In this document: positions 49,146-53,223 of the stretch, one piece after another | How the letters are laid out: every line of letters starts with the position of its first letter | Numbering within the stretch: the stretch's first letter is position 1 | Assembly (NCBI GenBank): GCA_028716525.1 | Contig: JAQUPQ010000027.1 | Span: 1-56,160, forward strand | Direction: 5' to 3' | Length of the DNA: 56,160 bases | Source: Terriglobia bacterium | GTDB taxonomy: Bacteria > Acidobacteriota > Terriglobia > JAIQFV01 | Program-made: the position numbers and the translations under genes | Notes under the pieces: generated by a model | Told to the model about the DNA's origin: nothing | What the model saw: only the letters and a program-made list of their open reading frames with translations | Database searches by the model: none

Positions 49146-49493
49146 ATGGAAACTACGACCGCCGTGCAAGGAATCCAGCTCACGCCGTCAGCTGTGACGA
49201 AAGTTAAAGACATTCTCGCAAAGCAACCCGAGACTTTTCAAGGTCTCCGCATCGCCGTTGTCGGCGGTGGATGCTCGGGATTCCAATACCACATGGGATT
49301 TGAAAAAGCCTCCGGCTTGAATGACCAAGTCTTGAATTTCGACGGCCTGAATGTAATCGTTGACAACAACAGCCTCCAGTACCTCAAGGGCTGTGAGGTG
49401 GATTATGTCGAAGGCCTCCATGGGACAGGTTTCAAGTTTAACAACCCCAATGCCGTCTCTACCTGTGGCTGTGGCGAATCATTCAAGGCCTGA
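49146..49493 (+). CDS. erpA: Iron-sulfur cluster insertion protein (ErpA/IscA family)
   Basis: A-type carrier that receives Fe-S clusters from the assembly machinery and delivers them to target proteins. The three ligand cysteines are present: Cys43 in GGGCSGFQY, and Cys107 and Cys109 in STCGCGESF. ITLT-type opening (IQLTPSAVTKVKDIL) and VIVDNNSLQYLKGCEVDYVE complete the family pattern. The 115-residue length is normal. GAGGAG lies six bases before the ATG. It stands alone between aroA and the convergent xdhC; ErpA and IscA are hard to tell apart by sequence. Confidence 0.93.
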   Translation: METTTAVQGIQLTPSAVTKVKDILAKQPETFQGLRIAVVGGGCSGFQYHMGFEKASGLNDQVLNFDGLNVIVDNNSLQYLKGCEVDYVEGLHGTGFKFNNPNAVSTCGCGESFKA

Positions 49494-49646: not shown

Positions 49647-50492
49647 CTATTTTTTTATGGGGATCGGCTGCAGAGAGCTTCTTGATTTTACCTGATCGGA
49701 CAGCTGCAGCCCCTCCGGCAGGTTGGCTCGTCGCCGTACCGCGATGATTTCAGCCACGAAGGCCACAGCGATTTCTTCAGCCGTGATGGCGCCGATATTC
49801 AGTCCGATTGGCGCGGTGACACGTTGGAATAATTGCGGATCGAAGCCTTCCTGTTCCAAACGCTCGAACAGCGTTCGAATCTTTCTCCGACTGCCAATCA
49901 AGCCGATGTACCGGGCCGGGGTTTGAATAGCCCACCGAAGAACAGAGAAATCTTCTTTGTGTCCACGGGTCACGATCACCAGGTACGAAAATTCCGAGGG
50001 CTTAATCTTCCGGAATGCATTTTCGAAGAAATCGGCAACGATTTCAATGGCCTCCGGGAAGCGCTTGCGGCTGGCGTAATCCGGGCGATCGTCGATGACG
50101 ACAGTTTGAAATCCCGCCAGTGTGGCCACTTTAGAGATCGCTCGCGAAACGTGACCGGCCCCAAAAATATAAAGGGTGGGAGGAGCAAGAATCGGTTCTA
50201 CAAACACCTCCAGGGTTCCCCCGCAGATTAATCCGCTTTGATCAACGTCGTCATCTGTTAAGTCAAAAGTCAGGAGCCGAGACTTTTCCTCGGCCATGGC
50301 CTTCTGGGCCGCCAGAACGACTTCGGCTTCCACACATCCCCCGCCAATCGAGCCCGTGGTGCTTCCATCTGAGCGCACCAAAATCTTGGCGGCCTCGTAG
50401 CTGGGGATGGAACCGCGGACCCGTACGATGGTAGCCAAGGCAGCGCGCTGGCCGCTCCGGCGGATGTGGGCTATCTCTTCGAAAATATCCAT
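49647..50492 (-). CDS. XdhC/CoxI-family molybdenum hydroxylase maturation protein
   Basis: XdhC proteins bind molybdenum cofactor and help its sulfuration and insertion into xanthine-dehydrogenase-type hydroxylases. The N-terminal XdhC_CoxI part (residues about 8-75) has RAALATIVRVRGSIPSYEAAKILVRSDGSTTGSIGGGCVEAEV. The C-terminal Rossmann part has LYIFGAGHVSRAISKVATLAGFQTVVIDDRPDYA and later YLVIVTRGHKEDFSVLRWA, YIGLIGSRRKI and PIGLNIGAITAEEIAVAFVAEI. It is the last gene of a mocA-yqeB-xdhC run on the minus strand, 10 bases after yqeB. No hydroxylase structural gene is in the window. Confidence 0.92.
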   Translation of the reverse strand: MDIFEEIAHIRRSGQRAALATIVRVRGSIPSYEAAKILVRSDGSTTGSIGGGCVEAEVVLAAQKAMAEEKSRLLTFDLTDDDVDQSGLICGGTLEVFVEPILAPPTLYIFGAGHVSRAISKVATLAGFQTVVIDDRPDYASRKRFPEAIEIVADFFENAFRKIKPSEFSYLVIVTRGHKEDFSVLRWAIQTPARYIGLIGSRRKIRTLFERLEQEGFDPQLFQRVTAPIGLNIGAITAEEIAVAFVAEIIAVRRRANLPEGLQLSDQVKSRSSLQPIPIKK

Positions 50493-50502
50493 GACCGTTA
50501 TT

Positions 50503-51330
50503 CTACAGCGAATTCACGATCCGCAAAACCGCTTCAAGCGCTCCCCCGGCAATAGCTCGGGCTTTGTCGGATATGCGAAAGCACAGCTCAGGTCTACCCC
50601 GGGGATCGACGTCGGCTACTTTGGTTCGATCTGAAACCGGCACGCCATCATGCAAGAGCCCTCTTACAACTCCTTTCAAATTTGATACCACATGACGGGA
50701 GTTGATTTGGCCCAGGGATTCACCCGGGGCGACGGTATCGCCGATGTTCCGGAGCGGGTGAAAAACGCCGAAAAGGGGCGCATAGAGCACTCGATCTGAG
50801 GCATAACCTTCAACCTCGGCCGGAAGGCTTGTGTCGGTTTGCGCTTCGCCCAGCTCTATCACGCGGCCCAGGTCATGCCCGCGGTTTGTCTCAATGACAA
50901 AGCGCGCGTCCCGGGGCGCTAGAAAGCCGGGACCGAGAGCAATCACAGAAGCGCCGGGAAATTTATGATCCCCGGTTTCCCCTTTCAACATGCGCGCGTC
51001 AATGAGGATCGTCCCGGGCTGGCGCAGTAGGGATTGTGTCTTTTCAAGGTCCGGATCGACCATCACCGGGACACGCTTGGCGCGCATACCGTCCCTTGCT
51101 TCATCAACCGAACTCACACGGATTCCTTCGATGGACTCGATAACCTGTCTGCCGGCATAGACGCACTCGGCATAGGCTACCGTCCGGCGAATTGCCAATG
51201 GCTTCTCGATTTCCGTCAGAAGGACTTGAAACCCGCATTGCACGAGTTTGTGCGCCACTCCGCTAGCCATTTCACCGGCGCCCCGGATGAGGATCATGCC
51301 GCCATCAAATTGTTTAACGCCTTTCGACAT
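50503..51330 (-). CDS. yqeB: YqeB/EF2563-type protein of selenium-dependent molybdenum hydroxylase maturation
   Basis: This family marks genomes with the labile-selenium molybdenum hydroxylase trait. I recognise it from ILIRGAGEMASGVAHKLVQCGFQVLLTEIEKPLAIRRTVAYAECVYAG, VDPDLEKT, ILIDARMLKG, VIALGPGFLAPRDARFVIETNRGHDLGRVIE and the C-terminal PGESLGQI, VVSNLKGVVRGLLHDGVPVSDRTKVADVDPRG. The first part looks like a nucleotide-binding Rossmann fold; the biochemical role is not settled. 275 residues. It abuts the mocA-like gene with no spacer and lies 10 bases before xdhC, so the three are one operon. Confidence 0.85.
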   Translation of the reverse strand: MSKGVKQFDGGMILIRGAGEMASGVAHKLVQCGFQVLLTEIEKPLAIRRTVAYAECVYAGRQVIESIEGIRVSSVDEARDGMRAKRVPVMVDPDLEKTQSLLRQPGTILIDARMLKGETGDHKFPGASVIALGPGFLAPRDARFVIETNRGHDLGRVIELGEAQTDTSLPAEVEGYASDRVLYAPLFGVFHPLRNIGDTVAPGESLGQINSRHVVSNLKGVVRGLLHDGVPVSDRTKVADVDPRGRPELCFRISDKARAIAGGALEAVLRIVNSL

Positions 51331-51918
51331 TCAAGTCCGCCTGATAAATTCTCGATAATCGTCCTCGGTGTCGATGTCGAATAGGATTTCATCGGATTTC
51401 ACATCCAACCAATGAATTTGATCCGCGCGATTTCCTAAAATCGATTTGCAGCCGACGTCGCCTCGAAGTTCGTATATCTCATTCCAAAAGACCCGGGGGA
51501 TGAGAACGGGATTCCCCTGCTGTCCTTGGAACCGGGGTGCAATGATCTTTCCTTTATGACGTATGAATTCGCCAATCATGCTGTTCATCAGTTCCGTGCT
51601 CACCAAAGGCATGTCCGCATGAACGATCAAGACGCCCTGGGAGTGCTTGTGACATTTTTCCAATCCACATTGGATGGAGCCGGCCATTCCGGAGGAGGTC
51701 TTCGCATTCACAACAATGCGCACCCGGGGAGGGGTGCTTTCTTCTTCCAGAGTTTTGCGATTCCCTGCATGACACACCACAACTATTTCGTCCGCGCAGG
51801 TGTTAACGAGTCGTTGCAAGGAACAACAAAGAATCGCTTCTCCACGAAATTCGATCTGTGACTTGTCACGGCCGAATCGCTTCGATAAACCGGCCGCCAA
51901 TAATATCCCGGATATCAC
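51331..51918 (-). CDS. MocA-like nucleotidyltransferase
   Basis: A 195-residue transferase of the MobA/MocA type, which joins CTP (or GTP) to molybdopterin. GILLAAGLSKRFGRDKSQIEFRGEAILCC is the nucleotide-binding signature, and GVLIVHADMPLVSTELMNSMI carries the metal-binding Asp. QGNPVLIPRVFWNEIYELRGDVGCKSIL is the usual second half. A GTG start at 51918 is used. Operon context with yqeB and xdhC favours molybdenum cofactor cytidylyltransferase over MobA. First gene of the run, 81 bases after the LeuA-like gene on the same strand. Confidence 0.85.
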   Translation of the reverse strand: MISGILLAAGLSKRFGRDKSQIEFRGEAILCCSLQRLVNTCADEIVVVCHAGNRKTLEEESTPPRVRIVVNAKTSSGMAGSIQCGLEKCHKHSQGVLIVHADMPLVSTELMNSMIGEFIRHKGKIIAPRFQGQQGNPVLIPRVFWNEIYELRGDVGCKSILGNRADQIHWLDVKSDEILFDIDTEDDYREFIRRT

Positions 51919-51999
51919 TTCGGCAATATAAGGAATGGGCTATCGGGCGTCAAGCCGGAGAGTCCTGCATTCATGAGTTGGGTGCTCGAGCGGTCTGAA

Positions 52000-53223
52000 T
52001 CAGGAGTGATGGATTACGGCGTGGATTTCAGACTCCGTCAGAACGTGATTGGATTGTTTGGCGAAGGCGTAAATGGCGTCGACGAGCGTTTCGTCAGGAT
52101 TCATCCCATTCTTCTCCAGCCAATGAATGATGTTCGACTTGCCGCTCATAGGTCCGATCTCTATAGTTTGCTCCAACCCGAATAGATGCGCCGGTACGCC
52201 GGAATACACGCTATTGGCCAGGTTGACATCTTTTTTGCGCAGGGCTTTGATTACAGCGGCCGCGTGCACGCCCGTGGCGGTGCGAAAGGCGTCGGCCCCA
52301 AAGACCGGATAATTGACAGGAATCGGAACGTGGGTCGCTTTGGATACCGCATGGCAATAATCTTTCAACTTTGTCAGATCCTGATGAATGACGCCCATAA
52401 GTCGAAGATTTACGAGCAACTGATCCATGGCGGCATTGCCGACCCGTTCCCCAATCCCGAGCGCACAAGCATGAATTTGGTCAGCCCCGGCTTCAATGGC
52501 CGCCATGCAATTGGGAATAGCAAGACCCCGGTCGCTGTGCCCATGCCAATCCAGGCGGATGGCCGAGTGGCTGGGTTTAATGACCTCTTCAATGACAAAC
52601 CGGATGAGGGCTTTCACGCCTTCAGGTGTGGCGTGGCCCACGGTGTCGCATACCACAATGGCCCGTGCCCCACAATTGATGGCCGTGGAGTACAACAATT
52701 TAACGGTTTCAGGATCCGCACGAGTCGTATCTTCGGTGACATACATAACCGGCAGGCCCAACCGCGTGGCGTAGCCGACCGCTCTCTCAGTTGTCTTGAC
52801 CAGATGGTCGACGCTCCACTCTTCCGTGTACCGGCGAATGGGGCTCGAACCCAGAAACGTTGCCGCTTCTATTTCTAATCCGGTTCGTTGCACCACCTCG
52901 GCGATGGGCGTGATATCGGCTTCAATCGTCCGAGCGGCGCAATTGGCCTTCAGCTTAAGTTTTGAATTGATAATCTCGCGGGCCAAGCGCTCCACATCCG
53001 ACTTGGCGCGGGGCCCGGCTCCGGGGAGCCCCAAATCCAATGAATGGATCCCCACTTCATCCATGAGGTGCAGGATTTCAATCTTCTCGGAAATGGTGGG
53101 ATCGTGCACGGAGGGAGACTGCAATCCGTCCCTCAAGGTCTCGTCATTCAGGAGAACAGGTTTGTCCGTGAGCGGCTTGGAGTTGCCGCTCACATTCCAG
53201 TCAAAGATGAGAGTTTCATCCAT
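52000..53223 (-). CDS. LeuA-like aldolase (2-isopropylmalate/citramalate/homocitrate synthase family)
   Basis: A DRE-TIM metallolyase of 407 residues. Asp27, Arg31 and the DETLRDGLQSPS segment form the metal and substrate site, and HGH (His227, His229) in LDWHGHSDRGLAIPNCMAAIEAGADQIHA is the metal pair, with GIGERVGNAAMDQLLVNL closing the barrel. The loop reads DGLQ, as in HMG-CoA lyase, where LeuA has DGEQ, so the reaction may differ from standard isopropylmalate synthase. It lacks the 100-residue allosteric LeuA dimer domain. No leu genes adjoin; an isopropylmalate-dehydrogenase-like gene lies at 16496. Confidence 0.82.
   Translation of the reverse strand: MDETLIFDWNVSGNSKPLTDKPVLLNDETLRDGLQSPSVHDPTISEKIEILHLMDEVGIHSLDLGLPGAGPRAKSDVERLAREIINSKLKLKANCAARTIEADITPIAEVVQRTGLEIEAATFLGSSPIRRYTEEWSVDHLVKTTERAVGYATRLGLPVMYVTEDTTRADPETVKLLYSTAINCGARAIVVCDTVGHATPEGVKALIRFVIEEVIKPSHSAIRLDWHGHSDRGLAIPNCMAAIEAGADQIHACALGIGERVGNAAMDQLLVNLRLMGVIHQDLTKLKDYCHAVSKATHVPIPVNYPVFGADAFRTATGVHAAAVIKALRKKDVNLANSVYSGVPAHLFGLEQTIEIGPMSGKSNIIHWLEKNGMNPDETLVDAIYAFAKQSNHVLTESEIHAVIHHS

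Follow-up and report, generated by a model that had tools for sequence, protein, structure and literature searches.

The MocA family is known for joining CTP to the molybdenum cofactor, and the XdhC family for binding this cofactor and handing it over to the hydroxylase. In E. coli, proteins of both types are encoded in a cluster with YqeB—namely in the arrangement yqeB–yqeC–mocA plus ygfK–ssnA–ygfM–xdhD. Herein, the XdhC and YqeB parts are fused into a single protein; a yqeC exists as well, with the hydroxylases directly alongside. The selenium-dependent xanthine dehydrogenase locus of E. faecalis (xdh–mocA–sclA–selD–yedF–yqeC–yqeB) contains selD, yqeC, and the hydroxylase inside the locus itself. 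In C. difficile, genetic work reportedly points to SelD and YqeB being needed, and, to our knowledge, the chemistry by which the YqeB-linked Mo=Se ligand is formed is known in no organism. The placement of selenium on molybdenum hydroxylases is the general unsolved question that gives such loci their importance. SelD, YqeB, and YqeC in combination are regarded in the literature as the reliable signature of the selenium-cofactor trait (PMC5029168, PMC9312934).

The locus described here is a trio in the order mocA–yqeB–xdhC from a Terriglobia bacterium. It lies in a stretch of 56,160 nucleotides that was analyzed as a whole (the window), corresponding to contig C27 in an assembly of 4.2 Mb. The trio resembles the E. 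coli system in the clustering of MocA, YqeB, and an XdhC-type protein, and its genome likewise contains a purine-type hydroxylase (the enzyme of contig C57, sister to XdhD), SsnA, and a YgfK-like protein. In contrast to E. coli, XdhC is a separate protein, no yqeC was found, and the hydroxylases are located on other contigs. With the E. faecalis locus, it shares MocA, a YqeB of the same clade, and a SelD in the genome; however, the trio stands alone here, and SelB also explains the presence of selD. The same three genes occur in L064 from the same phylum (genome G100) and in L131 from Marinimicrobia, also in stretches without detected yqeC or hydroxylase, but in the order mocA–xdhC–yqeB. The trait is already known, and the locus is probably a yqeC-less instance of it that is unlinked to hydroxylase genes.

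Architecture of the mocA–yqeB–xdhC trio

All three genes lie on the minus strand. The mocA-like gene of an NTP transferase (51331–51918, 195 aa, GTG start) comes first and is followed by yqeB (50503–51330, 275 aa, ATG start) with a gap of 0 bases, meaning that the yqeB ATG stands directly after the mocA stop TGA. After a further gap of 10 bases, the xdhC-like gene (49647–50492, 281 aa, ATG start) encodes a Mo-hydroxylase maturation chaperone. The original prediction had described three minus-strand genes with exactly these positions and gaps, which the ORFs reproduce. Its YqeB-type assignment is borne out by the profile search, in which YqeB matches TIGR03309 with 293.7 bits (cut-off 220). The names given to the two other genes stood at the level of the family: the MocA-like protein scores 120.6 bits against NTP_transf_3, above the cut-off, and the XdhC-type protein scores 143.3 bits against XdhC_C and 78.4 bits against XdhC_CoxI, each above the Pfam cut-off. 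The best family of the MocA-like protein is TIGR03310, for which its 163.6 bits miss the equivalog cut-off of 186.45; by these scores, the label "MocA-like" is correct and the equivalog name unsecured. In the same kind of search, the XdhC-type protein falls below the cut-off of both named NCBIfam XdhC/CoxI equivalogs. None of the profile matches of the trio is within the range of chance. Going by its family, the mocA-like product is probably a molybdenum-cofactor cytidylyltransferase.

The trio forms a self-standing unit, since the upstream neighbor on the same strand (52000–53223, isopropylmalate/homocitrate-synthase-like) is 82 bases away and has no counterpart among the matches listed in the survey of YqeB loci, and since the gene past xdhC (49146–49493, ErpA-like) is convergent with the trio. 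A recent transfer was rejected because GC content (54.4% for the trio compared with 54.1% for the window) and GC3 are ordinary. A promoter-like TTGACG-17-TATATT (51925–51953, minus strand) ends 6 bases ahead of the mocA GTG and, if real, suggests a nearly leaderless transcript. Five sites of this type were found in the region compared with 2.4 expected, and this one may be a chance occurrence.

The trio is very probably an operon that matures molybdenum hydroxylases. Our main reading, with a probability of roughly 0.6, is that it serves hydroxylases of the xanthine-oxidase family and is equipped for their selenium version. Herein, MocA would join CTP to the molybdenum cofactor, and XdhC would bind the finished cofactor and pass it to the apo-hydroxylase. 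YqeB would help to give some hydroxylases a labile Mo=Se ligand, with selenophosphate coming from the SelD of the genome. The clients would be the C57 enzyme, together with FAD and Fe–S subunits encoded on C31, and the C47 enzyme, both from clusters of anaerobic purine/uric-acid breakdown. The original prediction had noted that the hydroxylase is missing locally and must be encoded elsewhere; indeed, contig C27 encodes 0 large subunits, and the genome contains six, all on other contigs (C57, C47, C11, C6, C40, and C3). The XdhC of the trio is the only XdhC_C-domain protein detected in this genome. Because one XdhC is available for six hydroxylases, the operon would not be exclusive to selenium enzymes if the others need XdhC, and it probably serves sulfur-type hydroxylases too.

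Selenium genes and the phylogeny of YqeB

The genome contains a selD on contig C101 (372.6 bits, above the cut-off). It carries one in-frame TGA within the motif AGUAAKIGP, at what we take, from E. coli SelD, to be the catalytic Cys position. A selB is located on C3 (391.4 bits). Judged from these genes, SelB plus a selD with an in-frame TGA, the genome has the selenocysteine trait. Hence, selD is not an orphan here, as selenocysteine requires it in any case. The further partner yqeC, for which the original prediction suggested a search, did not turn up: TIGR03172 has no match at E 0.001 across the genome, and the same search recovers the E. coli copy. Since the genome is 96.5% complete and in 104 contigs, a gap at yqeC is possible; if the gene is truly missing, yqeC would be dispensable for the trait.

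A first tree of YqeB comprised 112 copies and a second one 119, the latter rooted with homologs from Methylocella, Methylovirgula, Thermomicrobium, and Paraburkholderia plasmids. In the rooted tree, the window YqeB falls inside a clade of 111 rows (SH-aLRT 100) that holds all SelD/YqeC-linked YqeBs, including those of E. faecalis, H. marismortui, P. acidaminophilum, and E. coli, and within which a group of 102 rows is nested (support 92). This placement agrees with the selenium link that was originally proposed. Of the two outcomes that the original prediction had named as refuting it, a genome without selD and any molybdenum hydroxylase or a YqeB outside the selenium-linked clade, neither occurred. 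The window YqeB sits on a long branch, and its exact place and sister group within the clade are unsure. It keeps 20 of the 24 clade-specific residues, the exceptions being positions 115, 118, 121, and 171. The first three of these (A115, N118, and T121), at which it departs from the family, all lie in one conserved loop, which is the low-confidence part of the structure model. Homologs of the outgroup type occur in genomes without SelD and in some with SelD, for example, in Burkholderia vietnamiensis (PMC2432076).

Within the phylum, 396 genomes were sampled, and YqeB was counted from a TIGR03309 score of about 200 bits upward. By this measure, 30 genomes contain YqeB; selD is present in 259 and yqeC in 24. 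selD is present in 29 of the 30 YqeB genomes compared with 230 of the 366 others (Fisher 3.0e-5), or in 26 of 27 once three genomes are left out whose sole copy is of the outgroup type according to the rooted tree (1.1e-4), both values ignoring relatedness among the genomes. The selD-less exception, G100, has SelB, and its selD probably fell into an assembly gap. The association could be indirect, as SelB is likewise present in almost all of these genomes. Such a reading is countered by five genomes of the same phylum (family f25; L060, L063, L075, L081, and L084) whose clusters combine selD, yqeB, yqeC, and xdhC with hydroxylases (fewer of the latter within the stretch read for L063) and which have no SelB above the cut-off (best matches 187–199 bits compared with 242). 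On sequence grounds, these genomes are in the orphan-selD state. Their clusters are similar to the genome studied here in combining XdhC and YqeB with SelD and in containing two kinds of hydroxylases that are homologs of those on C57 and C47; they differ by the presence of yqeC, by hydroxylases within the cluster, and by the SelB scores.

Outside the phylum, selD is found in 45 of the 50 genomes with the closest YqeB relatives. The five exceptions include Paradesulfitobacterium ferrireducens (L133), in which yqeB, xdhC, SelB, and a hydroxylase are present and selD gives no match at E 1e-40, which probably also reflects an assembly gap. Back in the phylum, yqeC is missing from 7 of the 19 main-clade YqeB genomes, and in three yqeC-less ones (G064, G095, and G207), YqeB lies near a hydroxylase. 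Together with the orphan-selD clusters, yqeC-less genomes such as the source of the window are natural cases for what YqeB does alone.

The trio could also be explained without selenium, as a general maturation unit that supplies cytidylylated, sulfurated cofactor to the six hydroxylases, with YqeB only binding or transferring the cofactor. YqeB-like proteins outside the selenium clade, which in Burkholderia and Thermomicrobium adjoin genes of molybdate/tungstate transport, may do likewise, and the single XdhC, the missing yqeC, and the divergent loop of the window YqeB fit this role as well. However, we consider it rather unlikely: the window copy belongs to the selenium-linked clade and keeps most of its specific residues, YqeB tracks selD within the phylum, and no genome of the phylum sample has a full-length YqeB while missing both selD and SelB.

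A decayed trait would also account for the missing yqeC and for the long branch. Herein, an ancestral full system would have lost yqeC, YqeB would be drifting, and only the functions of MocA and XdhC would still be used; the fact that no other YqeB above 25 bits turns up in the sampled genomes of the same class points in this direction. Yet of the 38 columns with a conservation of 95% or more within the clade, the window YqeB keeps 36, and its reading frame is intact and directly abuts mocA. Moreover, yqeC-less systems recur in the phylum in the proportion given above, some with YqeB adjoining a hydroxylase. Decay appears very improbable in light of this. For the preferred reading, a maturation operon equipped for selenium, the part that concerns the organism deserves its own grade: selenium use, as the original prediction had proposed, is likely, with selD, the hydroxylases, and the clade on its side, and the missing yqeC and a selD already explained by the selenocysteine trait against it.

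Candidate client hydroxylases

The large subunit on C47 is xanthine-dehydrogenase-like, and its closest solved relatives are xanthine oxidases. Its cluster also encodes a fused Fe–S/FAD subunit, an aminotransferase, carbamoyltransferases, and carbamate kinase. The SsnA of this cluster scores 451.6 bits against PRK07203 (cut-off 444) and 450.2 bits against TIGR03314, missing the cut-off of 455.5; the YgfK-like protein matches TIGR03315 over the first 400 positions only. As a whole, the C47 cluster resembles the reductive uric-acid pathway of PMC12507026. Contig C57 starts with its hydroxylase large subunit gene, and the end of C31 carries an 8-oxoguanine deaminase (598 bits, cut-off 532), an FAD subunit, and an Fe–S subunit. 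The two contigs probably join, uniting the hydroxylase subunits; their ends have only 9 bases in common (CACGCAGAG). The C6 enzyme matches best to 4-hydroxybenzoyl-CoA reductase (826 bits, under the cut-off of 994.55), and its neighbors are presumably box-type benzoyl-CoA genes.

In a tree of the hydroxylases, E. coli XdhD is the sister of the C57 enzyme (99), and one hydroxylase from the f25 clusters is that of the C47 enzyme (96). The YqeB-linked enzymes of L072, L058, and L105 form a group with the C6 enzyme (96), and the enzymes of C40 and C3 fall outside. By design, the rows are the enzymes of the genome itself and YqeB-linked ones, with selenium-free controls absent. Since all other rows are YqeB-linked, the tree displays kinship and not selenium use, and naming a client by it alone was rejected. 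In an earlier study, the hydroxylases showed no selenium-specific branch (PMC2432076). The selenium ligand leaves no recognized signature in a hydroxylase sequence.

Tentatively, and at slightly less than even odds, the purine-type hydroxylases of C57 (with the C31 subunits) and C47 may be the clients. SsnA is present in 45 of the 396 phylum genomes, and YqeB is enriched among them (12/45 compared with 18/351, Fisher 2.1e-5). Because most SsnA-bearing genomes of the phylum (33 of 45) are without YqeB, meaning that clusters of this kind operate without it, we infer the clients rather than read them from this association. The nearest relatives of the SsnA of this genome come from G074 and G132, both of which bear YqeB. 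In an extended form of the proposal, MocA, YqeB, and one XdhC common to sulfur- and selenium-type hydroxylases would constitute a minimal yqeC-independent module of selenium insertion that acts in trans on reductive purine/uric-acid enzymes, one cluster of which includes a microcompartment shell protein; we regard this form as unlikely.

The C47 cluster contains further genes. A PduT-like protein that contains two domains of the BMC (microcompartment shell) type (L097:13717–14268) adjoins an RnfC/PduS-like electron carrier (L097:14300–15622) in the cluster of SsnA, carbamate kinase, and the hydroxylase. A xanthine-utilization microcompartment has been predicted in Firmicutes (PMC6620236). A protein of 436 aa in the purine cluster (L021:981–2291) has no Pfam or NCBIfam match, and a homolog in another genome (G144, L069; 61% identity) is encoded about 3 kb away from a yqeB gene. 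A radical SAM protein (L097:3127–5139) scores 311.7 bits against the tetraether lipid synthase Tes (cut-off 450) and 211 bits against the radical SAM selenoprotein family TrsS, and is related to both.

Predicted fold of YqeB

The structure model of YqeB, built from 56 sequences (mean pLDDT 90.3, pTM 0.89), consists of an N-terminal Rossmann-type domain and a C-terminal biotinyl-like barrel. The predicted barrel aligns with biotinyl domains at a Z of about 10 and an rmsd of 1–2 Å. A likeness of C. difficile YqeB to biotin carrier protein has been remarked on (PMC11448449); the model extends this remark in that YqeB shares the predicted fold but lacks the attachment site. A role as carrier of the biotin or lipoyl type was rejected, as the acceptor hairpin is shortened and the family has no lysine column. 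This suggests that YqeB may bind its cargo rather than carry it covalently via that hairpin. The N-terminal domain aligns with solved XdhC structures at a Z of about 9 over 130 residues, as many Rossmann proteins do, and a profile comparison of YqeB with the XdhC Rossmann domain gives a probability of just 14% over 31 columns. A sequence search found no relatives of YqeB in the PDB.

The fold model draws attention to the conserved C250 of the window YqeB, which is kept in 89 of 98 other main-clade copies. An obligatory role of this residue as selenium carrier was rejected because E. coli YqeB has Phe at that position. In E. faecalis, a 30 kDa protein with labile selenium has been described, for which the YqeB and YqeC homologs are candidates by size (PMC2432076). 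A perselenide on C250 would be a guess.

A separate YqeB clade is formed by families f47 and f78 (SH-aLRT 97–99; L061, L069, L073, L076, L079, L080, L083, L085, and L086). In the stretches read, its yqeB genes have no hydroxylase, XdhC, MocA, or YqeC neighbors and are often close to the gene of a patatin-like protein; all these genomes contain selD. The proteins of this clade have Leu where the conserved Cys stands in others.
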